Shown: positions 14,803 through 29,297 of the stretch, piece after piece
Position numbering within the stretch: the first letter of the stretch is position 1
How the letters are laid out: every line of letters starts with the position of its first letter
Source of the DNA: a virus
Strand: one strand, 5' to 3'
DNA: 29,297 nt
Virus record (IMG/VR): IMGVR_UViG_3300036884_000003
Coordinates: 1-29,297 of that record
Program-made: the position numbers and the translations under genes
The notes under the pieces: model-generated
What the model was told of the DNA's origin: nothing
What the model saw: only the letters and a program-made list of their open reading frames with translations
The model's database searches: none

Positions 14803-15825
14803 ATGAAAAAACTACTGACGGGAATCCTTGCAGTATGCGCATTTACGGTATGCGCTTATGCCGATTATCTTACCAAAACCAGCATAGGCTCGTATGTAGG
14901 TTTGTTAGCCAATGAGACCGGGCTTACCTACAGCAACACATACGTCCTTGACTTGTCCGTATATAATGCTGCGAGGGTTTCCGCTCAGGTAGATTATACT
15001 TCTGCGACGTTTGCCGCTTCGACGTTTACGGACGGCTCGAAAAGCACTGGTAGCGTTACCGTTGTGTCAACGACTGGATTGTCTGGCGTGATACTTAAAA
15101 TAAACCAGATACCGATAGTCGCTGGGACGGACTATGTTATTGACGTGCCAACACAAACAGCAACCAATCTGGCGGCCTTGATAAATTCAATGCCGGATTT
15201 GAGTGCGTTCATAACTGCTCATGCAGATAGTTCGGTTGTAACTTCTACATCGGTGTCGGTTGGCGGGAATTATCCGATGACGACTTCCGATGCAACAAAG
15301 CTCTCGGTATCCCATGCAAATATGACGGGTGGAGTATCGGCGGGGTATAATGCGGCTGATGATAGAATAATAATCCCGGCCCACGGTTTCCCGCTCGGAT
15401 TAGCTGTGGCATATAGCACGGGTTCAGCATCAGGCACAATCGGAGGGCTTACGGCTGGAACCGTGTATTACGTTATTCCTGTTGACGTTAATACGATTAG
15501 GCTTTCGACGACATCTGCCCGTGCGATTGCCGGATTATACATAAATCTTACCGGACAAAATGCAAGCACGACCGCATACACATATACGCTTACGCCTTCC
15601 GCAATATCAGGAACACCTGGTTTTTACTGGCAGGTATCCAATGACGGCGTTGATTATTCAAGCTTCATAAGTGGGTCAAGCGAAACAATCAGTGGCTATA
15701 CCGCACCGTATGCGACGGCGTTCTATGATTTCTCGAATGTCAACTATCGCTATCTTAGGCTCAATGTTGCGGGGCCGACGACTGGCGGAATATTACTTAA
15801 AGCTACCGTAAACGTGAAGGAATAG
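14803..15825 (+). CDS. Beta-rich phage protein with an N-terminal signal peptide
   Basis: A 340-residue protein. Residues 1-20 (MKKLLTGILAVCAFTVCAYA) form a standard Sec signal peptide with a probable cut after AYA. The rest is threonine/serine-rich and made of beta repeats. A segment around residue 194 (HGFPLGLAVAY, then GTVYYVIPVDVNTIRLS) is a small module that also occurs near residue 376 of the gp12-like protein at 17216. The end (YRYLRLNV, GGILLKATV) is common in virion surface proteins. It would be a structural or receptor-side protein by position, yet it carries an export signal, which virion proteins normally lack. Shine-Dalgarno sequence is weak. Confidence 0.7.
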   Translation: MKKLLTGILAVCAFTVCAYADYLTKTSIGSYVGLLANETGLTYSNTYVLDLSVYNAARVSAQVDYTSATFAASTFTDGSKSTGSVTVVSTTGLSGVILKINQIPIVAGTDYVIDVPTQTATNLAALINSMPDLSAFITAHADSSVVTSTSVSVGGNYPMTTSDATKLSVSHANMTGGVSAGYNAADDRIIIPAHGFPLGLAVAYSTGSASGTIGGLTAGTVYYVIPVDVNTIRLSTTSARAIAGLYINLTGQNASTTAYTYTLTPSAISGTPGFYWQVSNDGVDYSSFISGSSETISGYTAPYATAFYDFSNVNYRYLRLNVAGPTTGGILLKATVNVKE

Positions 15826-16481: not shown

Positions 16482-17216
16482 ATGGACGCGGGCAATACCA
16501 AAATCAGCATAATTAATAAAAGTTTAAGCCATATCAAGGTTCAAACCATAACTGCGCTTACCGACCAGAGCGAGCCTGCGCGAAAGGCTAACCTGTTCTA
16601 CGACTGTGCGCGTAAATCGCTACTGCGCGAATGTGATTGGCAATGGGCTAGGGTTAAGAAGCAATTAAATCTGATAGGCAGTATTGAAGACGCTATCGCT
16701 TACCCCACTGATATAAGTAAGCAAGATATAATCCGGCCTTGGATATATACATACGGCTATCCGGCAGAATGCGTTCGGTTGCATAAATTATTTAATCCCG
16801 AAATGCCCGGCATATCAATACCGTTCTATCTTCCGCATAGCAATGATGGAAGCGATCTCGACAATGTAACCAAATACGAAATAGGACGCTCACCGATAAC
16901 CAATATAATCGCAATCGGCGTAAATATGCAGAATGCTTGGGCTGAATTTACATATAACATCACTGACGAAAGCCAGTTTGATGATATGTTTCAGGACGCG
17001 CTCGCTTGGGTTTTGGCGGCTGAACTGGCAATGCCGCTATGTTGCGATAAAGAACTGGCGCAAATGGTGGACGCTCGGGCAAAGGAATCCGTATCGGAAG
17101 CTAAGCGTAAGAATGGCGGAGAGGCCCCGGAATTTCTACCGCGTGTCTGCGATTATGAACGTGCCCGAACAATCGGCGGATATGGTGTAAATTATCCCTG
17201 GGGAGATGACCGCTAA
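16482..17216 (+). CDS. Tail tubular protein A-like (T7 gp11-type adaptor)
   Basis: A 244-residue protein matching the gatekeeper/adaptor family that sits under the portal. Typical segments are SIINKSLSHIKVQTITAL, SEPARKANLFYDCARKSLL, CDWQWARV, and YGYPAECVRL; the C-terminal helix region (DALAWVLAAELAMPL) is also characteristic. It joins the portal to the nozzle protein coded by the next gene. A GGGGG box precedes the ATG, and the stop overlaps the next start as TAATG. Confidence 0.9.
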   Translation: MDAGNTKISIINKSLSHIKVQTITALTDQSEPARKANLFYDCARKSLLRECDWQWARVKKQLNLIGSIEDAIAYPTDISKQDIIRPWIYTYGYPAECVRLHKLFNPEMPGISIPFYLPHSNDGSDLDNVTKYEIGRSPITNIIAIGVNMQNAWAEFTYNITDESQFDDMFQDALAWVLAAELAMPLCCDKELAQMVDARAKESVSEAKRKNGGEAPEFLPRVCDYERARTIGGYGVNYPWGDDR

Positions 17217-20200
17217 TGCCGCAAGAACCGCAGTGGCCTGTCCATGAGATAAAGGCTAGTTTTGCTGGTGGAGAATTCACGCCTGCACTAGCGGCTCGCG
17301 TGGATATAGCCAAATACTCAACTGGCCTTAAAACTGCGCGTAATGTCAATATTATGCCACAGGGGGGCGTCAGGAACAGGCCCGGAACTTACTTTGTGGC
17401 GGCGGCGGGAGATTCGGCTCATGCGGTTAGAATTATTCCGTTCGTATATGCAACCGGTGATGCCTATATCTTAGAGTTTGGGCAGTATTATATCCGTATG
17501 TTTAAGGATGGCGAAAGGGTTATAGTTGACCCGGCTGACGTGGACAATTTTGACCCGACCGAAACATATCCGCGTAATTCCATTGTCAAAGTTGGTAGCT
17601 ATGTCGCTATTTATTGGAACGGTGTTTCGGAGAAATATTTGACCGCCTATGCGCCGTATGGAACGGACATAACGGACTACGCGGCGGATGTTGATGTTTC
17701 TGGCGGCGCAGATTGTGCGGTTACTGTAACATCTGGCAATAAATATTTACATTTTAGGATAGGTTCAACTGCCGCTAATAACTCGGCGGCTAATTTCCAA
17801 ACCAAACTACGCGCCCTCGGAGGCACTTTTGCTAATTGGTTTGTAGTTGAAAATTCGCTATATGCTGCTGCTAGACCTACAACTATAACCGCAGGGTTCA
17901 CAACCTTTTATGAAAATAATACGCTTTGGGTAAATGGTGTAAATGTTATAACCGGAACATCCGGGGTAAGTATTTTTCCGTTAAAAATGACTTTTGCGGA
18001 ATCCTTATCTTGGCAGGCATGGTCTGACCAGATTACTACGACATATACCGGTGCGGAATTAAAAGATTTGAAGGTTACGCAGTCGGCGGATTATCTATAT
18101 ATCTGCCATCCCGACCATGCGCCAGCACAGTTTATTAGATTGGCTAATATGGTGTGGACAATAGAGCCATTCCCTTACGTCAACGGCCCGTTCATGTTGC
18201 AAAATACTGATTCAACAAAAACACTATCGTCCAATAGCATGACACCAGGCTCCATTACCCAGACAATAAGCCAAGTTGTAGCACGTCCCGACTGGCTTAT
18301 GACAGGATATAACGGCATTGATTTAGTTACCGCTTCGGCCCATGGATTGTCAACGGGGAATATCGTTACAGTATCATCTTTGGATGGAGCGTTGGCGGCT
18401 ACATTGAATGGGAATAGTTATACAATTACTGTGGTTAATTCCACGCGGTTTAGTTTGGGTATTAGCCATTCCACATTCTCGACATATACTCCGGGGGCTG
18501 GAACAATATCAACCGATGGCCCGGTAACCATAACGGCTAATTTCGATATTTTCGACGCCTCCCATGTTGGAGCCTTGTTCCAATTAGTCGAAACATTACC
18601 GGCGCAATCAATATCGGAGGCTCCTGCCTCTACCGTAGCCACATCTTCAATCCAGTGCGGTCATACTTGGCGTATTATCACAAATGGAAATAGCTGGACG
18701 GGCGTAATAAAAATATATGCCTCTGTTGATGGCGGCACTACATGGAATCTGCTTAGAACTTTACAGGGGAATGCGGGTGCAGGATATGCGGAAAATTTTG
18801 ATACTTCAGGAGATACTGGATATTCACAATGCTTAATACGAGCTATAGGGACATATTCGGCATCAACGGCAACTATAACCCTTTCATCTGACACATTTGA
18901 TTGGGTGGGAATTATTAAGATTGATACCGTGTCTAGCCCAACAAGCGCAACAGCAACTATATTGACGCAAAATAATGTAGGAATAGGACTTGCCAGCACA
19001 AATGCTACATATCAATGGGCCGAGGGCTCATGGTCTAATTATCGCGGATGGCCTACGGTTTGCACGTTCTTTCAGGATAGACTTGCTTTCGCGTCAACGG
19101 TATCTGAACCGCAGACTGTCTGGTTTAGTCAGACCGGAGACTATTCAAATTTTGGCGTGAGTTACCCTATAATTGACAGCGACGCTCTTAGTATTTTATT
19201 GCCGTCTCGCACGGTCAATATTGTGAAAAACATGTCATCACTATCTGCAATGGTGGTGCTTACGTCTGATTCGGATTTCAGTATAGACACGGGACAAAGC
19301 GGCACATTATCCCCGACCTCGGTGTCCGTTATCTGCCATGGACACCGAGGGGCCTCGGAAGTTACCCCAGCGGTTGTCGGTAATGAGTTGATTCTTGTGC
19401 AGCAGATGGGAACGATTATCCGAAACCTAATTTATCAATTCGCGGTAAGCGGATATATGGGCGACAATATTAGTGTCGTTTCTCAACACTTATTCACGGG
19501 CTATCAGATTGTTGAAATGGCATATCAGCAGGAACCAGATAGCATAGTTTGGGCGGTTCGTAATGACGGAACTTTGCTTTCACTAACCTATATGCGCGAA
19601 CAGGAAGTAATCGCCTGGACGCACCACGACACGCAAGGAACATTTGAAAGCGTCGCCTCTATTCCAAATAGCACTCTTGGTATAAATGAAATATGGTTTG
19701 TCGTAAATAGAACCGTGGGCGGAAATACAGTGCGATATATCGAACGTCTTGCGCCCCGAGATATGGGAATGGACGCGGAAGATTACATGATGCTGGATTC
19801 AGCCGTTACGCAGGATAACGGTTCATCTCCGAGCGTTACCGTTACTGGATTGTCGCATTTGAATGGTAAAACTGTAAATGCTCTAGCAGATGGTAATGTC
19901 GTAATTGGCCTTACGGTGGCGAATGGTAGCGTAACCTTGCCCGTAGCGGCCTCTTTAGTTCATGTCGGACTATCTTATATCTCCGATGTTGAAACCCTAC
20001 GTATTGAATCGCCAGATACGGCGGGAACATTGCAGGGCCGAAGGGTTGCAATCCCCCGCGTTACCTTGCGCTTTTGGAATTCTCGTGGTGGACATATCGG
20101 GATAACCAATCAGAATACGTCCATAGCCTCAACCGGGACAACTGGCCTTGATGAAATTATCCAGCGCGAACCTGGCGAGCGTTACGATGCGGCAATCCCG

Positions 20201-20335
20201 CTCAAAACACAGGATTATTTATTTGTCCCTAATGGCGGATACGACTTTGGCACGAGCGTATTTTATCGGCAGACCGACCCGTTGCCGTTCTGTTTGCTTG
20301 CCATAATCCCTCAAATTGTTAGAGGTGAGAATTAA
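17216..20335 (+). CDS. Tail tubular protein B-like (T7 gp12-type nozzle protein)
   Basis: A 1039-residue protein, longer than T7 gp12. The start is diagnostic: IKASFAGGEFTPALAARVDI, then YSTGLKTARNVNIMPQGGV and RNRPGTYFVA, the N-terminal region of podovirus nozzle proteins. Midway are WPTVCTFFQDRLAFAST and VWFSQTGDYSNF, also conserved, and later HGHRGASEVTPAVV and ILVQQMGTIIRNL. Residues about 366-430 insert a small beta module with HGLSTGNIV, shared with the signal-peptide protein at 14803. It forms the tail end through which DNA leaves. Starts and ends in TAATG overlaps. Confidence 0.92.
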   Translation: MPQEPQWPVHEIKASFAGGEFTPALAARVDIAKYSTGLKTARNVNIMPQGGVRNRPGTYFVAAAGDSAHAVRIIPFVYATGDAYILEFGQYYIRMFKDGERVIVDPADVDNFDPTETYPRNSIVKVGSYVAIYWNGVSEKYLTAYAPYGTDITDYAADVDVSGGADCAVTVTSGNKYLHFRIGSTAANNSAANFQTKLRALGGTFANWFVVENSLYAAARPTTITAGFTTFYENNTLWVNGVNVITGTSGVSIFPLKMTFAESLSWQAWSDQITTTYTGAELKDLKVTQSADYLYICHPDHAPAQFIRLANMVWTIEPFPYVNGPFMLQNTDSTKTLSSNSMTPGSITQTISQVVARPDWLMTGYNGIDLVTASAHGLSTGNIVTVSSLDGALAATLNGNSYTITVVNSTRFSLGISHSTFSTYTPGAGTISTDGPVTITANFDIFDASHVGALFQLVETLPAQSISEAPASTVATSSIQCGHTWRIITNGNSWTGVIKIYASVDGGTTWNLLRTLQGNAGAGYAENFDTSGDTGYSQCLIRAIGTYSASTATITLSSDTFDWVGIIKIDTVSSPTSATATILTQNNVGIGLASTNATYQWAEGSWSNYRGWPTVCTFFQDRLAFASTVSEPQTVWFSQTGDYSNFGVSYPIIDSDALSILLPSRTVNIVKNMSSLSAMVVLTSDSDFSIDTGQSGTLSPTSVSVICHGHRGASEVTPAVVGNELILVQQMGTIIRNLIYQFAVSGYMGDNISVVSQHLFTGYQIVEMAYQQEPDSIVWAVRNDGTLLSLTYMREQEVIAWTHHDTQGTFESVASIPNSTLGINEIWFVVNRTVGGNTVRYIERLAPRDMGMDAEDYMMLDSAVTQDNGSSPSVTVTGLSHLNGKTVNALADGNVVIGLTVANGSVTLPVAASLVHVGLSYISDVETLRIESPDTAGTLQGRRVAIPRVTLRFWNSRGGHIGITNQNTSIASTGTTGLDEIIQREPGERYDAAIPLKTQDYLFVPNGGYDFGTSVFYRQTDPLPFCLLAIIPQIVRGEN

Positions 20336-20787
20336 TGAAAATCACGATTGAGAAAACAAAACTCGACGATATAAAAAAGGTTGCGGCGGCATTGCGAGAT
20401 GAGGATTTTTGCGAGGCGATGGCGCAACATGGCGACGCAATGATGGCACTTTCTGTATCAGCCGAAAAATCGGACGTGTGTTGCACTCTGTTTGTTGATA
20501 ATATTCCTTGCGCTATTTATGGCAGAGTTGCCGCCAGTATTTTAGGAGATTCGGCTAATATCTGGTTGCTTGGAACACCGGAACTTAATAAAATAAAAAA
20601 GAGCTTTATGCGTATTAGTAAACATGTTATTAATGATTGGTTGAAAGAATATCCGGTTTTGTGGGCGCAGGTTGACGGCAGATATGGCAAAACACATCGC
20701 TGGCTTAAATGGCTAGGATTTCAGAAGTTCCCAGGATATGAATTGCATGGCGTTGAGTTTAATAATTTTATGATTAGGAGGGCTTAA
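20335..20787 (+). CDS. T7 gp13-like protein (GNAT-fold-like)
   Basis: A 150-residue protein in the gp13 place between nozzle and internal virion proteins. The pattern DIKKVAAALRDEDFCEAMA, then WLLGTPELNKIKKSFMRISK, WAQVDGRYGKTHRWLKWLGF is that of T7 gp13-type phage proteins, which resemble acetyltransferases; the last segment corresponds to the acceptor-side end of such folds. In T7 the product is needed for normal virion assembly. Catalysis is not shown. Starts in TAATG. Confidence 0.82.
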   Translation: MKITIEKTKLDDIKKVAAALRDEDFCEAMAQHGDAMMALSVSAEKSDVCCTLFVDNIPCAIYGRVAASILGDSANIWLLGTPELNKIKKSFMRISKHVINDWLKEYPVLWAQVDGRYGKTHRWLKWLGFQKFPGYELHGVEFNNFMIRRA

Positions 20788-20788
20788 T

Positions 20789-21355
20789 ATGGGCGCGGCG
20801 GCGGCAATGGGAGCAATGGGTGCAGGTGGAGCAGTATCAGCATACGGCGCGATATCTGGCGGCAATGCTTCAAATGATTACTATAAATATTTGTCTGGCA
20901 TATCAGCACAAAACGCGGAACTTGCCAAAGCCTCCGGCGAAATGGAGACTTACAATCTTGGAACTCAAGAAGAACAGGGTGTTAAAAATATTTGGAATAA
21001 GGAACGCGGAACTGTCGGGGCGCAGACGACAGCACTTGCCGCAGGTGGCGCGGGCGTAGGCTCAAAGACCGCAGAGCAATTGGTCAGCAATACCGCGAAT
21101 ATGGCAAATATGGACGAAATGGCACTCCGGTATAACGCAGATTTGAAGATGAAAAATGCACGTCTTGGCGCACAAAATCAGGCACTTAATTATGAATCGC
21201 AAGCCGCCGGATATAATGCGGCAGGTTCTAATGCGCAACACGCCGCAATGCTTAGCGCAATGGGTTCTATTCTTGGCGGTGCTGGACAAGTATCGGCAAT
21301 GGGAATAAATAATTCCGGTGTTTCCCCCAGAGGTTCTAGTTATGGAGGATATTAA
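20789..21355 (+). CDS. Internal virion protein, T7 gp14-like position
   Basis: A 188-residue protein with a strong GGAGGG box (20777-20782). The first 30 residues are alanine/glycine-rich and hydrophobic enough to insert in a membrane (MGAAAAMGAMGAGGAVSAYG). The rest is helical and glutamine/asparagine-rich (ALAAGGAGVGSKTAEQLVSN). This is the composition of gp14-like ejection proteins, which form the outer-membrane part of the channel used for DNA entry. Position before two large internal proteins supports this. Stop overlaps the next start (TAATG). Confidence 0.75.
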   Translation: MGAAAAMGAMGAGGAVSAYGAISGGNASNDYYKYLSGISAQNAELAKASGEMETYNLGTQEEQGVKNIWNKERGTVGAQTTALAAGGAGVGSKTAEQLVSNTANMANMDEMALRYNADLKMKNARLGAQNQALNYESQAAGYNAAGSNAQHAAMLSAMGSILGGAGQVSAMGINNSGVSPRGSSYGGY

Positions 21356-23133
21356 TGAACGTCCCAATGTATGAACCCTCTGTAGGAATTGAAGCCCCGC
21401 AAGTCCCCGATTTACGTATACAGCCAGTTACTTCTGCGGCAAGTGGTGAAGATGTCGCGCAGTCTATGCGGGGTCTAGGTCAGCATATTGAGCAAGGTGC
21501 TGGACAAATTGCAGAACATTTAATCCAACAGGAAAAATTACGGGCACGGGAAGATGCCTCCAATGCCTCCGCTAACTTCGCTCAGGGGATTCAAAATCTC
21601 CATGCCAATCTCGTAACCAATACCGGAGTAAATGCGGATTGGATTTTACATGGCAAACCCGTTCCGCTTCCACAAGGAATGACCAAACTGGATATGCCAG
21701 TATCTGCCCCGATACCTAAAGTAGACCCTAACAGCTATGAAGGGAAAGCTTCGGCATTAATGGCTGATGCGCTGAACGGATTAACCCCTCGCGCCGCGCA
21801 AATAGCGCAAGCATCCATGAATCGGATTTATGATAGTGGCAGGGAAATGATTATCAGCCACCAGTTGCAACAGAAACAAATAGCAGAAAAACAAGCCGAT
21901 GCGGCATCAATGGTAAATAATGCCCAAATTTACGCGGTTACTCTGAACGGAAGTGCTACCGCGACGGGAGAGGCAAAGACTAATCTTGCCAACAATGCGG
22001 AAGCTACATACCAAGAACAGATGAAAGCCATTGCCGAGCAAGGCTCGGAACGTGGCGAATTACAGCCCGTCATTGATAAGAATAAGCGCGACTTTGCGGA
22101 TTATGTGGCAAAAACAGTTTCCGAGAGTGGAAATGTTGTGGCGGTTAAGAACCTACTCTCGGCGCATAAAGCTGATTTTTCAGAGGAAGGTAAGGCATTG
22201 CTTAATGGCAGGATGGTTCATATCGGCGTTCAGGAAATACGCAATTCGCAGACAATAGCGGCAGAGCATTTACTAAATCCAGACCAGACCTATAGCGAAC
22301 AACAGGTATCTAGCTTCGCCAACAAGTTTGCAGATGATAATAATTTTTCGCCAGAGCAGAGAACGCAATTATTGAATGAATCACGCGCGGATGCCGGACG
22401 ACAAAACGGTGCATTAATGCAGACCAGGCAACAGAATTTGGAAACTTGGCATAATGGCGTTATTCAGGATTACAACGCACTTATTAAAAAGAATCCTGCT
22501 ATTGCGTCCGACGCACTAATGTCTAAATATGTAATGAACGACAAGACCGATTTCACAGGATATTCAGCATCGGATATGCAAAAAAAAAGCGATTTTATTA
22601 ACCAACTTTTTGATGATAGACAGAAGGCTATCAGTAAGGCGATGGAATATCTCAACCCTGAACAGCAAGGCGCAGTATATCTGGCGAAACTTTTGATTGA
22701 AGCCAGGACGGGCAATACGCAAAAAATAAGTATTCCCAGTTATGGCGATATTGACGCGAAGGGATATTACGAACATTTGCTTGAAAGCAAAGTTGCGGGC
22801 AGTAATATGACGTCTACGCAGATTATTGATTACACGAATGGCATAATAAAAGATTTCCCAGTATCAAGTGGTATTTTTGGTGCACAAATATCTACTGGCG
22901 GAGCCGAACAATTGAGAAGCGATGCTTTTAATCTTAATGCTCTCGCTAATATCGAAAAAACTCCCGGTGGATATGCGCTTATTAAACAGTTGCATAATAT
23001 CGGGATTACGCAATCCGAAGCGGAGATGGAGTATATGCGCCGCTTAGAAGAAAAACAAAAGATGGCTGACGAACAGAAAAACATTAAAAAACTACCTGAA
23101 AATATTGGGAAATATAAGCGGGGTGAATTTTAA
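21355..23133 (+). CDS. Internal virion protein, T7 gp15-like position
   Basis: A 592-residue, almost wholly helical protein rich in glutamine, alanine and asparagine. The start (VPDLRIQPVTSAASG, then RGLGQHIEQGAGQIAEHLIQ) is like other podovirus internal proteins, which begin with a short extended part and then a long helix. No catalytic motif is seen. By position it corresponds to gp15, a core protein ejected into the periplasm with the DNA. Ribosome site GGAGG (21343-21347) in the previous gene's end; TAATG overlaps at both ends. Confidence 0.75.
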   Translation: MNVPMYEPSVGIEAPQVPDLRIQPVTSAASGEDVAQSMRGLGQHIEQGAGQIAEHLIQQEKLRAREDASNASANFAQGIQNLHANLVTNTGVNADWILHGKPVPLPQGMTKLDMPVSAPIPKVDPNSYEGKASALMADALNGLTPRAAQIAQASMNRIYDSGREMIISHQLQQKQIAEKQADAASMVNNAQIYAVTLNGSATATGEAKTNLANNAEATYQEQMKAIAEQGSERGELQPVIDKNKRDFADYVAKTVSESGNVVAVKNLLSAHKADFSEEGKALLNGRMVHIGVQEIRNSQTIAAEHLLNPDQTYSEQQVSSFANKFADDNNFSPEQRTQLLNESRADAGRQNGALMQTRQQNLETWHNGVIQDYNALIKKNPAIASDALMSKYVMNDKTDFTGYSASDMQKKSDFINQLFDDRQKAISKAMEYLNPEQQGAVYLAKLLIEARTGNTQKISIPSYGDIDAKGYYEHLLESKVAGSNMTSTQIIDYTNGIIKDFPVSSGIFGAQISTGGAEQLRSDAFNLNALANIEKTPGGYALIKQLHNIGITQSEAEMEYMRRLEEKQKMADEQKNIKKLPENIGKYKRGEF

Positions 23134-26100
23134 TGGATTTAGAAAATCAGGAGATACCCAATACCGATAATTCTAATATACTCAATGGCATAGATGTTTC
23201 AGACTTAAAAGATTCATCTACACTTAAAAGCAATTATGATTTTGTTGCTTCGCAGAACCCGAATGATGTTGCTGATACGGTAAAACTTGCAAAGCAGTTT
23301 GATGAATCGCCTATTTTCATATCCGCTAATCTTAAAAAAGCGCGGGAAGCTGCTGCCGCGCCAGATTTCGATGCTATTTCTAAATTATTCCCCCATACTG
23401 CTAAATTTTTTTTAGACCAAGAGAAAATGGCACAAGCGTATGATGATTCTGCCAGTTTAATGAAACTTGAAGCCGCCGGACAGGTACATAATGCGATAAT
23501 GGATGGGTCGCCAGTTGCCGCAAATAGTATGCTTACCGCTTTCGGCGGAGGTCTTGAACATTCGGTCATCGGTCTTATGTATGGCAGGCCAGATGTTGAA
23601 TTGCCAGAAAATGCGCCCTTCCAGCAGAAATTAGCCTATACCGTGGGGAATCTTATACCCGATTTGCCTGTTATGACTGCTGGTAGTTTTTTGGCGGCTC
23701 CCGCTGGGCCTATTGCAGCCACAGCAGGAGCATTTGCATTACCCACAGCAATTCGGCAGACCATACTTGAACATTATAAAAACGGCGATATAAACGATAC
23801 CGGCGAACTCATGCGCCGGATATTCGCCATTGGCAAGGAAACGGCCAAGAGTGCCGCTATTGGCGCAGCTACGGCAGGTGCTGGCATAGTGGCTCAAAAG
23901 GGCGTAGAAGCTGCCGCAGGCGTGGCAAGCGATGCTTTAGGAACAGGCGTAGAATATGCCGCCAAAGTAGGCGCAGTAAACACCGCCAAGACTGCTGGAG
24001 AACTTGCCGGAATGACGGCGGCGGGCGCAGCAGTTGAAGGCAAAGGCACATCTTGGGAAGATTTAGCCCTCAACTCCATAGTTATAGGCTTGATGCACGG
24101 CACAGGGTTATTGCGTGGAAAAGCGCAAGATATGCGGGCCGAGGCCATTAAAGCCGAAACCACGAAAGCCGCATATATGAAAATGGCGGAAGTGGTAGAC
24201 CAGTCCCCGCTTAAAACGCGCAATCCTGAATTACTTGCAGATCATGTAGACAATGTTATGCTTCCCGCCATGATGCGAGTTGGAGATTGGGATACCTTTT
24301 TCCAAAGTCAGGGTTTAGACCCTGCCAAAATTGCCGCCAAATTCGGGCAGGATGTTAAAGATTCATACGACGCCGCCAAATCAACAGGAACAGGCGATGT
24401 AATCATTCCCGCCAGCGTGGTAACCAGCGAGAATATGAAGCCGTACATATCTGGTCTTTCCGATAATATCAGGACTGAACAAAACGGGATGTCGCTTAAT
24501 GATTTCCAGAAGCAACAGGAAATTTTGAAAGCCGCAAAAACTCGATCTGATAAGTTGGTAAAAGACAACGCTGATATCAAACTGGCACGCGAACAGATTT
24601 TACAGGATGTAAACCAGAATATGTCCGGCGCAATGGAAAAATCTATCGGCGCAGGCGCAAAGGAAAGTACAGCAGATGTGGCGCAAATGTTTACCAATAT
24701 TATAATTTCACAGGCAGACGCGCGAGGTTATAAAAGCCCGATGGTGTTTTACAACGAGATTAAGCGGAATAACCCGGATTTGTTTAGAGTTGGGGAAGCC
24801 GCCGCTTCTGTCCATAGTGAGATGTATGACTTGGCAAAAGACGCGCTTGGGGTTGAACGTGAAGCGATTAAACCATCTCCCGAAATTTTACAGGCAAAGA
24901 ACGCGGTATTTGAAGATGTAAAAGGACGGCTTTTAGAAATAGGACGTGATGAATCTAACGCGGACGCGGAAGCTTCTTTGTGGGCTTCTCATGTGATAGC
25001 GGAAAGCCAGAGGCGTGGTATTGACCCAATGGAGCTTTATACCCAAAGCAAACTTAAACCACGCGCAGGAATTGCGCCGGAAGGAACAGAGTTGATGCAG
25101 GGTGGCGGAAAAGATTATGAGAAAACATATCCATCGGCAAGCGATATAGTGTCTGGGCTTAAAGTTAGAAAACATATACCAAACCAATCATCAATTGAAG
25201 CATCCATAAGCCACCCTGAATATCTTAATGGAGTGCGAGAAGTGCCGCTATCCATGTTTCCTGAACCACCCACAATCAATGAAAGAACAAAAGCACTTGC
25301 AGAAGCTATAAAAAAATCCGGCGAAATAAATCCTTTAATTGTTGGGGTGGATTCAAAAGGGCCTTATATTATAGAGGGCGCACATAGATATGATGCGCTT
25401 AAAATATTGGGGGTTAAATCCATTCCGGCTCAAGTAATTATTGATACCGAAAACCCCCTTTCCCAATCCCCCGCAGAATCATTCTATCAATCCGCATGGC
25501 ATGGTTCGCCGCATGATTTTGATAAATTCTCATTGCATAAAATAGGCACTGGTGAGGGAGCGCAGGCTTATGGTTGGGGGCTTTATTTTGCTGGGGATAA
25601 AAATGTTGCGGAGTATTATAGGCAAAAACTTGTAGGAGCAAATTTCCCCCCGCCGCGCCCGGATATGTTTACCGTGGATGGAAAATCTTATGCGAAAGAA
25701 AATGGTAAATTTCTTTTTATTTTGGGGCTTCCCCCTGGCGACGGAAGTGAAATCACCAAGGCCGAATATTCTAAAGCCTTTAGGGCCGCCCAATCAGAAT
25801 ATGAAGCCAAATCAAAATCAGGCAAACTCTACGAAGTTGACATTCCCGAATCAGACAAATTGCTGGATTGGGATAAGCCGCTTTCGGAACAGAGCGAGTA
25901 TGTTAAAGAAAAATTAAAAGATATTGAAAAAAATAATGCAAACTTTAGTATAGAACCGCGTGGCAAGAAATTTGCCGTAGTTATGGAGAACAATGAATAT
26001 GGAACATATAACGAGGAAATACAAGCTAAGCGGAGGCTTGAATACTTAAATAAGGCATATAATGATGAAAATGGTTCATTGATATATTCAAGACTAACAC

Positions 26101-28718
26101 ACTCGCAACCTGAGAATAAATTAATTCCAAAATTAGCAGAATTTCAAACAACCGCAAATGGAGAGGAAGCGGCAAGCCGTTATTTAAACAGCATGGGCAT
26201 ACAGGGCCTTAAATATCTTGACGCAACCAGTCGCGGTAAAGGCGAAGGTTCTCGCAACTACGTTATCTTTGACGATAAGGCAGTTGATATAATCAACAAG
26301 CATTATCAGGGCGGAAGCAAAGAGCCTCGCGCTTCTTACACGAACGCGCCGGAAGGCAAGTTTATTTCAATGTTCAAAAATTCCGACGCGACAAGCCTGC
26401 TCCATGAAATGCAGCATTTCTGGCTAGACAATATCCATGAATATGTGCAATCTGGCAAAGCCGACGAAGCATACATGAAGGACTGGAATACGATTGAGGA
26501 TTATCTAGGACATAAGACCGGAGAAAAATTTACCCGAGAGCAACAGGAGAAATGGGCTGAATCCTTTGAGCGTTACATCATGGACGGAAAGGCCCCTAAG
26601 CCCGAACTTGAGCCAGCCTTTGCCCGCATGAAAGATTGGTTTATCAAAATCTATGACGGCGCGAAGAAGAAACTAGGCATTGATAAAATACCGCCGGAAA
26701 TACGCCAAGTGTTTGACCGCATGGTAGGCGGCAAACCTGATTTTGACAATTTCAAATATGTGCATTTGCCTGACCTTGACTGGCGTTTCGGCGCGACGCC
26801 AAAAGAAACTGGAAAGAAAATACGCGAGAGTTTCACCAGTGAAAAAAATCCGCAGATAGGGAGAGGCAATAACCTAGCTGACGAAATAACACGCGGGACA
26901 ACGGAAGCCGAACGGCAGGGCATGTTCTGGTATGAGGGCGCAAAGGGCAATATAGACACGCTCAAACAATGGGCGAATGACGAAGGGCTTGAAAAGTACA
27001 AAGACCAGATAAATGCCGCAATCAATCTTTCTGATAAGGCCAAAGACCTGTTAAGTAAAGGCCGTCAGTATTATTACGAACAGGGGCAAGTCAGCAAAGA
27101 TGTAGGCTCTATCCATAATATTATAGAAGATTATGGAAGCAACAGAATTTACAAGGAAAAAGAGGGCGGCATAAGCACGAAGACTGGCGCAAACCTTAAA
27201 CAGACAACCGGACATGGGAAGGCGAGATTTTTTGAGAATCCGGCGGATGCGGCTAGGATTGGGGAACAGGTTGATGATGGGGTTATACGCGGAAATAAAG
27301 ATTTTGCTACGACAGATTATGCCATAGCCTTGCGACTACACAATGAGGAAATGGCGCGGGTAAACACTTCGCGGGCATTGGCAGAGAATATGCGGGATGT
27401 GGGATTGGCGCAATGGCGCGTTCCTAGCCAAGTTCCCGATGGTTGGAAAGCCGTAGGTCGGTTATCAAAGCAAAGACCGTTTATAGACAAGGACGGCAAC
27501 CCGCAGATAGTAACTTATCAACTCACTGCGCCGGAAGGCATAGCGGACGCACTAAAAGCCATATCAGACCCCGACTATGCAAAGTGGATTGACGGCGTTC
27601 GCGGTGTTCAGAAATATCAGGGTCTTGTGAAAACTTTTGACCTGTCACTTTCGCTATTTCATCATTTCACGTTTTTGATGACTGCGCTTTATTCCGGTGG
27701 CATACGGACTTTGCTTGAATTTCCGCACATGGAAGAAATGCTTAAATCCGATGACTTCCTAAAGCAAGAGGAAGATTTCCTGGGACATACCGGAATTACC
27801 GCAAACGTGGACGCGAATCAGGATTACTTGCGTGACCTGATGGGAAAGAATAAGGACTTTTTTGGAACACTTACTGAATTGCCCGTCGTAAAACAGGGCC
27901 TTGAAATCACAAATAAAAGCTCAAATTTCCTGTTTGGAAAAGCGCAACGATACTTAAAGGTTATGAACTACGCCGAGAATTGCTCCAAGTGGTTATCAGA
28001 CAATCCAAATGCTACAGCAGATGAAATATTGGAAGCCAAGAACGGATTTGCCAAAGCCGAAAACGCTAAATACGGCGGTTTAAATTGGGAGGCAATGGGA
28101 ATACAGAAATCCCACCTAAGCATAGCGCGGCTGATACTGCTTGCGCCAGATTACACGACGGCAAACGCTATGCTATTTGGATATGCTTTCAGCAAAGGCA
28201 CGGCGGGAAATGTCGCTAGGAAGCAGATACTTACATCCATGTTGGCCGGAATGGTTTTAACCGAAGGCATAAACTATATGCTTACTGGGCATTACACGGA
28301 TGAAAACGAAAAGGGGCATTTTCTTGAAATACAAATAGCCCCGGGCGTTTATATTTCCTTGCTTCGTGGCGGAGTGGGTGATATTGCAAAAGCGGCATCA
28401 ATGATTATACAAAATGGCGCAATGGGGATACCACAATTTTTGCAAGGTAAAACTTCGCCATTCACTAGGACAGCAACGGGGCTTTTAAGTAATACTCAAT
28501 ACACTGGCGTTCCGATAACAAAACGCAATGATGATGCCATAAAGCAGACATATAAGGCATTGAAGTTTACTCTAGCTAACACCACGCCTGCGCCATTCTC
28601 TGCGACAAACGCATGGCAATATTTGCATAATGAAGATTTTACTGTGCCGGGAGCGATAGCCGTTGGAACAGGGCTTGGAAGATTTGCAAAATCAAGGGGT
28701 GCCGGTGAAGTTAGATAA
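23133..28718 (+). CDS. Giant internal virion polyvalent protein with ParB-like, ADP-ribosyltransferase-like and metallopeptidase-like domains
   Basis: An 1861-residue protein in the gp16 place. Residues 1-160 are helical; 168-305 are hydrophobic and alanine/glycine-rich, possibly membrane-inserting. Residues about 700-770 look like a ParB N-terminal domain (PLSMFPEPPTI, EGAHRYDALKILGV). About 787-1055 match the ADP-ribosyltransferase of polyvalent proteins (HGSPHDFDKF at 790, GTGEGAQAYGWGLYFA, then GIQGLKYLDATSRGKGEG). About 1070-1185 match the polyvalent-protein metallopeptidase: HEMQH at 1091-1095, a likely third ligand E1146 in ESFERYIMDGKAP. The remaining 670 residues are helical with hydrophobic patches near 1508 and 1702. 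No lytic transglycosylase motif is seen, unlike T7 gp16. The domains are known from phage polyvalent proteins thought to be delivered with DNA; activity here is inferred. Confidence 0.85.
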   Translation: MDLENQEIPNTDNSNILNGIDVSDLKDSSTLKSNYDFVASQNPNDVADTVKLAKQFDESPIFISANLKKAREAAAAPDFDAISKLFPHTAKFFLDQEKMAQAYDDSASLMKLEAAGQVHNAIMDGSPVAANSMLTAFGGGLEHSVIGLMYGRPDVELPENAPFQQKLAYTVGNLIPDLPVMTAGSFLAAPAGPIAATAGAFALPTAIRQTILEHYKNGDINDTGELMRRIFAIGKETAKSAAIGAATAGAGIVAQKGVEAAAGVASDALGTGVEYAAKVGAVNTAKTAGELAGMTAAGAAVEGKGTSWEDLALNSIVIGLMHGTGLLRGKAQDMRAEAIKAETTKAAYMKMAEVVDQSPLKTRNPELLADHVDNVMLPAMMRVGDWDTFFQSQGLDPAKIAAKFGQDVKDSYDAAKSTGTGDVIIPASVVTSENMKPYISGLSDNIRTEQNGMSLNDFQKQQEILKAAKTRSDKLVKDNADIKLAREQILQDVNQNMSGAMEKSIGAGAKESTADVAQMFTNIIISQADARGYKSPMVFYNEIKRNNPDLFRVGEAAASVHSEMYDLAKDALGVEREAIKPSPEILQAKNAVFEDVKGRLLEIGRDESNADAEASLWASHVIAESQRRGIDPMELYTQSKLKPRAGIAPEGTELMQGGGKDYEKTYPSASDIVSGLKVRKHIPNQSSIEASISHPEYLNGVREVPLSMFPEPPTINERTKALAEAIKKSGEINPLIVGVDSKGPYIIEGAHRYDALKILGVKSIPAQVIIDTENPLSQSPAESFYQSAWHGSPHDFDKFSLHKIGTGEGAQAYGWGLYFAGDKNVAEYYRQKLVGANFPPPRPDMFTVDGKSYAKENGKFLFILGLPPGDGSEITKAEYSKAFRAAQSEYEAKSKSGKLYEVDIPESDKLLDWDKPLSEQSEYVKEKLKDIEKNNANFSIEPRGKKFAVVMENNEYGTYNEEIQAKRRLEYLNKAYNDENGSLIYSRLTHSQPENKLIPKLAEFQTTANGEEAASRYLNSMGIQGLKYLDATSRGKGEGSRNYVIFDDKAVDIINKHYQGGSKEPRASYTNAPEGKFISMFKNSDATSLLHEMQHFWLDNIHEYVQSGKADEAYMKDWNTIEDYLGHKTGEKFTREQQEKWAESFERYIMDGKAPKPELEPAFARMKDWFIKIYDGAKKKLGIDKIPPEIRQVFDRMVGGKPDFDNFKYVHLPDLDWRFGATPKETGKKIRESFTSEKNPQIGRGNNLADEITRGTTEAERQGMFWYEGAKGNIDTLKQWANDEGLEKYKDQINAAINLSDKAKDLLSKGRQYYYEQGQVSKDVGSIHNIIEDYGSNRIYKEKEGGISTKTGANLKQTTGHGKARFFENPADAARIGEQVDDGVIRGNKDFATTDYAIALRLHNEEMARVNTSRALAENMRDVGLAQWRVPSQVPDGWKAVGRLSKQRPFIDKDGNPQIVTYQLTAPEGIADALKAISDPDYAKWIDGVRGVQKYQGLVKTFDLSLSLFHHFTFLMTALYSGGIRTLLEFPHMEEMLKSDDFLKQEEDFLGHTGITANVDANQDYLRDLMGKNKDFFGTLTELPVVKQGLEITNKSSNFLFGKAQRYLKVMNYAENCSKWLSDNPNATADEILEAKNGFAKAENAKYGGLNWEAMGIQKSHLSIARLILLAPDYTTANAMLFGYAFSKGTAGNVARKQILTSMLAGMVLTEGINYMLTGHYTDENEKGHFLEIQIAPGVYISLLRGGVGDIAKAASMIIQNGAMGIPQFLQGKTSPFTRTATGLLSNTQYTGVPITKRNDDAIKQTYKALKFTLANTTPAPFSATNAWQYLHNEDFTVPGAIAVGTGLGRFAKSRGAGEVR

Positions 28719-28777: not shown

Positions 28778-29297
28778 ATGTCACTTTCAGATTCAACCAC
28801 AAAAGTAATTTACGCCGGAGATGCGAACGGTGGCACAAATACCGCAGGTCAAACTTTTGATATAACCTTTGCATTGCCGGATGATAGCACTGGAACGGAC
28901 GTGGCTGTTTATGTTGTTGATGATTTGGGCGCAGTTACGCTTCTTACGGCAAACTATAGCGTTGATGTTACTGCGCTTCATGTGATATATCCTACGGTGG
29001 GCGCGGTCGCTCCTCTTTTAACTGGTGTTAATGCTGTGCCAGTTGGATGGGAATTGGTTATCGCAAGAGTTGAACCGCTTACGCAAACAGTGGCACTTAC
29101 TAATCAGGGTGTATTTGACGCTACGGCTATTGAAGCCGAGTTTGACAAAATAACCATGATATGCCAGCAGTTGCAGGAGCAAATTAACCGTTGCTATAAG
29201 GCTCCAATAAATTTGCCATACAATATCACGGCTCCCGTTGTGCCTCCGACGACAACCATATTATCTTATGTCCAAGATACTCTTGCGAACTTGGTTA
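28778..29297 (+). CDS. Tail fibre protein, N-terminal part (3' end outside window)
   Basis: At least 173 residues, open to the window end. The ATG at 28778 has AGGAG (28767-28771) upstream. The N-terminal region (TFDITFALPDDSTGTDVAVY, then a strand-rich domain to about residue 100) and the segment EAEFDKITMICQQLQEQINR with a basic end are the typical virion-attachment part of podovirus tail fibres (T7 gp17-type N-terminal layout). The following proline/threonine stretch leads into the shaft. The receptor-binding end lies outside, so host range cannot be judged. Confidence 0.82.
   Translation, partial: MSLSDSTTKVIYAGDANGGTNTAGQTFDITFALPDDSTGTDVAVYVVDDLGAVTLLTANYSVDVTALHVIYPTVGAVAPLLTGVNAVPVGWELVIARVEPLTQTVALTNQGVFDATAIEAEFDKITMICQQLQEQINRCYKAPINLPYNITAPVVPPTTTILSYVQDTLANLV

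Follow-up and report, generated by a model that had tools for sequence, protein, structure and literature searches.

A giant polyvalent protein in the gp16 position of a podovirus and the cargo slot it shares with its relatives

The gene preceding the tail fibre in the window, a linear virus record of 29,297 bases, encodes a single intact reading frame of 1861 residues. It occupies the place that phage T7 fills with gp16, and it carries motifs of several enzymes. This raises the question of whether such a protein serves to deliver DNA, to attack the host or both, and of whether its enzymes stand in for a cell-wall-degrading domain. On balance, we consider that it belongs to a podovirus of the BPP-1/epsilon15 type, is packaged in the virion as an ejection protein and also carries effectors, with a zincin that is probably self-processing. 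It is one more member of the class of polyvalent proteins, defined in 2017 by Iyer et al. (PMC5512222), within which its ParB-ADP-ribosyltransferase (ART) pair is unusual and its C terminus an orphan. The new part is the pattern of a cargo slot found across its family.

Gene position and domain layout

The virion genes around the giant are as follows.

17216..20335, + strand: tail nozzle (tail tubular protein B), 1039 residues; phrog_376, 3e-194
20335..20787, + strand: gp14-like internal virion protein; phrog_308, 9e-29
20789..21355, + strand: internal virion protein; phrog_418, 8e-14
21355..23133, + strand: protein in the gp15 position, 592 residues, without a detected peptidoglycan-hydrolase domain
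23133..28718, + strand: giant polyvalent protein, 1861 residues, gp16 position; phrog_9880, 7e-42; synteny with BPP-1, vir555, AF, Jess A and others
28778..29296, + strand: tail fibre N terminus, truncated by the end of the record; phrog_1640, 3e-12

The order tail tube A (phrog_394), nozzle (phrog_376), phrog_308, phrog_418, 592-residue gene, giant and fibre matches the gp11-gp12-gp14-gp15-gp16-gp17 order of T7. Synteny thus agrees with the gp16 position that a sequence-only reading had assigned to the protein, with the gp14-like, internal virion and gp15-position genes before it and the fibre after it. The start codon, an ATG, overlaps the stop codon of the upstream gene as TAATG. T7 gp16 has an N-terminal transglycosylase and shares with the giant its place between the equivalents of gp15 and gp17; the giant, in contrast, has no transglycosylase, and no sequence similarity between the two was detected. 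In the strict sense the phage is no relative of T7, because its portal is nearest to those of epsilon15-like Salmonella phages, at ~38% identity.

Two neighbours deserve mention in their own right. The nozzle is unusually long and has a Pfam match to E1_FCCH; the records matching most of it are Pelagibacter HTVC010P-type phages, and as a single query it found no match in IMG/VR, in a scan that depends on short exact peptides and excludes close relatives only. Between the capsid-side and tail tube genes, positions 14803-15825 encode a 340-residue protein with weak matches to an endosialidase beta-barrel (Pfam, 0.0044) and to a family of tail fibres (phrog_38233, 9e-9); it may serve in receptor binding or as a decoration protein.

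Within the giant, the following parts can be told apart.

23241..23483, + strand: LPD22, conserved N-terminal domain, residues 37-117; Pfam PF18834, 8.2e-11, above cut-off
24279..25109, + strand: remainder of the conserved N-terminal scaffold, residues 383-659; helical block, seen twice; in-house HMM
25119..25451, + strand: predicted ParB/sulfiredoxin-fold module with an EGxHR motif, residues ~663-773; ParB_N and PDB profile matches
25482..26306, + strand: predicted ART domain, residues 784-1058; AF2 model and PDB fold matches; H790, Y818 and D1030 conserved
26358..26762, + strand: zincin-like metallopeptidase domain, residues 1076-1210; HEMQH 1091-1095, E1139 and E1146; AF2 model pLDDT 87
26775..28715, + strand: C-terminal 647 residues, 1215-1861; no relatives found

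The motifs on which the sequence-only reading had relied are all present (EGAHRYDAL at 748-756, HGSPHDFDKF at 790-799, GTGEGAQAYGWGLYFA at 805-820, HEMQH at 1091-1095 and E1146) and, judged from sequence, exceed chance; for a protein as long as this and with its composition, chance alone would yield 0.04 HEXXH motifs. Its description of a polyvalent protein with ParB-like, ART-like and zincin-like domains was borne out by Pfam and PDB profiles, the ART model and invariant residues. LPD22, which it had overlooked, is also N-terminal in the proteins of BPP-1, AF, Jess A, Carin1, DC33 and CP2; none was found in that of vir555. The in-house scaffold HMM matches 46 of 52 family proteins, including the window protein.

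Unrelated biochemistries (ParB/sulfiredoxin, ART, zincin and LPD22) are thus combined in one polypeptide, and the gene lies among late virion genes, with internal virion proteins on one side and the tail fibre on the other. With the proteins of Iyer et al. 2017 (PMC5512222) it shares large size and a late gene, LPD22, an HYD-type ART, a zincin and predicted injection with DNA; it differs from them in a ParB module that is ParB_N-like rather than ddrB-ParB, and in a C terminus without relatives. The closest named family is that of BPP-1 Bbp10 (phrog_9880; PMC3650047), which has LPD22, cargo, zincin and gene order in common with the window protein. Bbp10, however, carries a PBECR1 RNase as cargo and the usual core, 1255 residues after its HEXXH, whereas in the window protein the cargo is ParB with ART and 770 residues follow the HEXXH, most of them without detectable similarity to the Bbp10 core.

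The ParB/sulfiredoxin and ART modules

The first module is assigned to the ParB/sulfiredoxin superfamily because of its matches to ParB_N and to PDB profiles of ParB, SbnI and sulfiredoxin. ParB_N reaches 7e-5 when the full protein is scanned, just below the Pfam cut-off, and 4.5e-6, above it, for the module alone; a profile of ten modules finds ParB chains in the PDB at 1.1e-6, SbnI kinase at 1.2e-4 and sulfiredoxin at 0.02. E748, G749, H751 and R752 are invariant across the ten. DdrB-like ParB (PF18763) matches neither the window protein nor the 10 module relatives, and matches the family member L101 at 9.8e-35. The nearest modules, those of L178 and L175 (60-62% identity), lie in unrelated giant phage proteins. 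The module, recognisable by VPNxxSIxAS ... EGxHR, turns up again in unrelated phage proteins (L175, L176, L178 and L180-L187) at 44-62% identity, one recurrence lying on a 455-kb contig.

Membership of this superfamily does not by itself reveal an activity. The window's EGxHR is, as we take it, closer to the GxHR of SbnI/SerK kinases and sulfiredoxin than to ParB box II, which together with the SbnI match would suit a nucleotide-using enzyme, such as an SbnI- or SerK-like kinase, and no DNase. The profile match to free serine kinase is not significant (0.75), ParB chains score better than SbnI, and the ParB domains of polyvalent proteins are predicted DNases (PMC5512222); we regard the nucleotide-using enzyme as somewhat unlikely.

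The ART domain has more than 584 relatives in IMG/VR. Its score against ART-PolyVal (PF18760; 1e-3) is 20.2 bits, below the cut-off of 31.2, so we class it as an ART-fold relative rather than a Pfam member; other ART relatives, such as the Jess A protein, exceed that cut-off. H790, G791, P793, G807, E808, Q811 and Y818 are invariant in 57/57 relatives, and D1030 is kept in 53 of them, with D1047 as an alternative catalytic aspartate. The arrangement is that of an H-Y-D site, with histidine on strand 1, tyrosine on strand 2 and aspartate on strand 5.

An AlphaFold model of residues 775-1215 (pLDDT 82), from which the ParB part was omitted because MAFFT had placed ART fragments on ParB columns, aligns with the ART-fold proteins that top its VIA-align list. 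These are the cyanophage A4 pre-ejectosome (Z 9.4), diphtheria toxin (7.5), MbcT and ParT (7.1) and PARP14 (6.7); a Z below 8 is weak by itself, and nearly all top rows here are ART-fold proteins. Foldseek found no significant match to the model in the PDB, the matches coming from VIA-align as a second look. As modelled, residues 784-1058 have an ART fold, with ADP-ribosyl transfer as the predicted activity. Short PDB sequence matches of the ART profile to gp41 constructs were judged to be chance.

The best of these fold matches leads into a virion. The sequence of chain B in PDB 9k3a (the A4 structure paper, cited in PMC12810830, is doi 10.1073/pnas.2423403122) and that of ORF27 from Anabaena phage A-4L are identical. 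ORF27 is flanked by an M23-peptidase gene and the tail fibre, the same position as that of the window giant, and the aligned part has an HGT motif and a GxGxYF motif. In the solved virion core of cyanophage A4, a protein of the gp16 position therefore has an ART-fold part. The two proteins have in common the gp16 position and an ART-fold domain with HG and GxYF motifs. The A4 protein is packaged in the virion by experiment, whereas packaging of the window protein would follow by analogy. The link to it is at fold level only, because sequence profiles do not reach the A4 protein (hhalign p 0.007) and there is no significant match between the two sequences; ORF27 matches neither LPD22 nor any other Pfam family, and its sequence has no HEXXH motif. 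Directly before the ART-fold part of ORF27 (L191:20116-25269, - strand), a ParB-looking stretch at ~1340-1410 was seen by eye, unconfirmed by Pfam, phmmer and hhalign; if true, it would repeat the ParB-ART order.

A known precedent for early action is T4 Alt, an injected ART that acts at the start of infection (PMC5512222). The window protein may share this role of an injected, early-acting ART, but Alt has an R-S-E active site whereas the window ART is of H-Y-D type and sits within a multidomain protein. Two observations on other ARTs may be recorded here. In L143:9320-9934, the ART reads YYGT where relatives read YHG, placing a tyrosine at the position of the catalytic histidine, and judged by this residue it may be inactive. 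In Sulfitobacter phage phiGT1, a 387-residue protein encoded two genes after the portal (L005:4918-6081) has Pfam matches only to an ART of the same type and DUF3990.

The cargo slot and its flanks

Across 46 family proteins, the window protein included, the N-terminal scaffold and the stretch that follows the zincin are of nearly constant length, at 471 (sd 45) and 1102 (sd 75) residues, while the slot between scaffold and zincin averages 554 (sd 430), ranging from ~0 to 1546 residues. Pfam matches between LPD22 and zincin in 44 members comprise ART (20), PBECR RNases (7), GNAT (3), zeta toxin (2), MuF-C (2), ddrB-ParB (1), ParB_N (1, the window protein) and a single methylase, GGDEF and RadC. 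From these comparisons, we read the region as a fixed cargo slot in which related phages exchange effector enzymes. In one pair, L143 and L149, identity is 94% for residues 1-801 and 95% for the stretch that begins with the zincin and runs to the end, but the cargo cannot be aligned, being one ART (205 residues) in one and a different ART with GNAT (464 residues) in the other. The breakpoint in the DNA is sharp. The pair thus records a recent change of cargo and shows that cargo can be exchanged on its own. The modules of the window protein likewise differ in their nearest relatives: L104 for the N terminus, L178/L175 for the ParB module, vir555 for the ART (47%, among four compared), L095 for the zincin (44%) and none for the C terminus. 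A fixed slot with swaps appears undescribed in Iyer et al. 2017, since the words swap, shuffle and modular are absent from its main text (PMC5512222). The constancy of the zincin is partly a matter of selection, because most family members were found through it; it is nonetheless present in 6/6 LPD22 proteins found by ART alone.

The zincin has an HEXXH followed by a glutamate on the subsequent helix, and all 48 of 48 relatives keep H1091, E1092 and H1095. E1146, which the sequence-only reading had listed beside HEMQH, is near-invariant (46/48); as the third zinc ligand E1139, in an ExxA motif kept in 48/48, is at least an equally good candidate. Modelled alone, the domain gave no match by Foldseek against the PDB, and its best VIA-align matches were lethal-factor catalytic domains (Z 5.1-4.1) and M1 aminopeptidases (2.1-2.7). 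These fold matches are weak, yet consistent with the published profile comparison that links polyvalent zincins to lethal factor (PMC5512222) and with the CLCA_X zincin family, which has Bbp10 among its seeds (PMC3650047).

Self-processing by the zincin is, in our judgement, likelier than cleavage of a host protein because the zincin is constant while the neighbouring cargo changes; the same general proposal was made by Iyer et al. 2017 (PMC5512222). We saw no cleavage site in the window protein. The sequence-only reading had the zincin itself as an effector, cutting a host protein after injection beside ADP-ribosylation and attack on DNA. Iyer et al. left this open (PMC5512222), and the nearest solved fold is the catalytic domain of lethal factor, a host-cleaving protease. 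A target-specific effector would, however, be expected to vary too, and the zincin sequence is conserved while the adjoining cargo differs between near-identical phages, which makes a host-directed zincin unlikely.

The further proposal that effector domains replace the cell-wall domain of gp16 found no support. Cargo does not displace a wall enzyme, because in relatives the preceding gene bears SLT or M23 alongside the giant's cargo. Seven cultured relatives (BPP-1, AF, Jess A, Carin1, CP2, Ab9 and ctEw122) have SLT or M23 in that gene, and an in-house count found such domains in 23/82 genes before giants against 1/82 giants. In some relatives, a cell-wall domain was detected neither in the giant nor in the preceding gene. 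No peptidoglycan-hydrolase domain was detected in the 592-residue protein of the window, nor likewise in vir555, DC33 and LS06, and a Pfam scan found no SLT or lysozyme domain in the window giant. As the record is a 29-kb fragment, we do not describe the phage as being without a cell-wall enzyme. Database names for the giants at L002:5715-11873, L009:5661-11780 and L013:3375-11753 are 'lysis protein' (Jess A) and 'crystallin beta/gamma motif-containing protein' (BPP-1 RefSeq record, ctEw122). In the Bbp10 and Jess A giants, Pfam finds only LPD22 with PBECR1 or ART, SLT/M23 being in the neighbouring gene.

The C-terminal 647 residues match nothing in phages, IMG/VR, GTDB contigs or PHROGs, the single-sequence IMG/VR and GTDB contig scans depending on short exact peptides and excluding close relatives only; the whole protein as a single query against IMG/VR likewise gave no match in such a scan. 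The 770 residues after HEXXH compare with 1229 (sd 38) in 46 relatives, and the Bbp10-family (phrog_9880) core of ~1230 residues is not found here, hhalign being not significant. MAFFT did align the C terminus with the family core, but homology is not claimed because hhalign, and hmmsearch against shuffles, gave nothing. The family-core profile also matched nothing in the PDB, T7 gp16 included. The C terminus may be a replaced core or a strongly diverged and shortened one.

Delivery and the meaning of the slot

Since the C terminus has no similarity to the family core, the case by homology for delivery rests on the N terminus, the zincin and synteny. We infer packaging, ejection and all of the enzymatic activities of the window protein. 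The LPD22-bearing scaffold would put it among the proteins of the internal core, beside those in the gp14 and gp15 positions, as synteny and the A4 pre-ejectosome suggest, and it would enter the cell with the DNA, the A4 pre-ejectosome protein being the nearest experimental evidence. The slot between scaffold and zincin holds the ParB/sulfiredoxin module and the ART, as sequence shows for both and the fold for the ART as well. Once inside, the ART would most likely ADP-ribosylate a host macromolecule early, like T4 Alt; the ParB/sulfiredoxin module would most likely nick or bind DNA or hydrolyse a nucleotide; and the zincin would most likely cut the window protein itself, freeing the cargo in the virion or the cell.

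A purely structural role, in which ART, ParB and zincin are retained folds that help in assembling the core or in contacting DNA and do not act early on as enzymes, would accord with the ART-fold part of 9k3a as an ordered element of the A4 virion core and with the tyrosine at the histidine position of the L143 ART, but is distinctly improbable given catalytic-site residues invariant in ART (57/57) and zincin (48/48) relatives and a slot holding unrelated enzymes, which are hard to fit to one structural role.

Beyond the reading of the window protein as an ejection protein and effector carrier, we put forward tentatively, as something possible rather than probable, that podoviral ejection proteins of this type are carriers of exchangeable warheads, with a fixed packaging scaffold, a slot of host-acting enzymes filled by recombination and a resident zincin that frees the cargo; the window protein would be a hybrid whose C-terminal core has also been exchanged. 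Effectors injected by phages are known mostly from T4, P1 and N4. If true, such carriers would parallel polymorphic toxins, with injection as their route of entry. Through its match to a virion core observed by experiment, that of A4, the packaging of the ART can be put to the test. What may be of use to a specialist is the slot pattern of the family: if the slot is a general cargo bay, its contents would provide a ready-made list of weapons turned on host defence in the first minutes.
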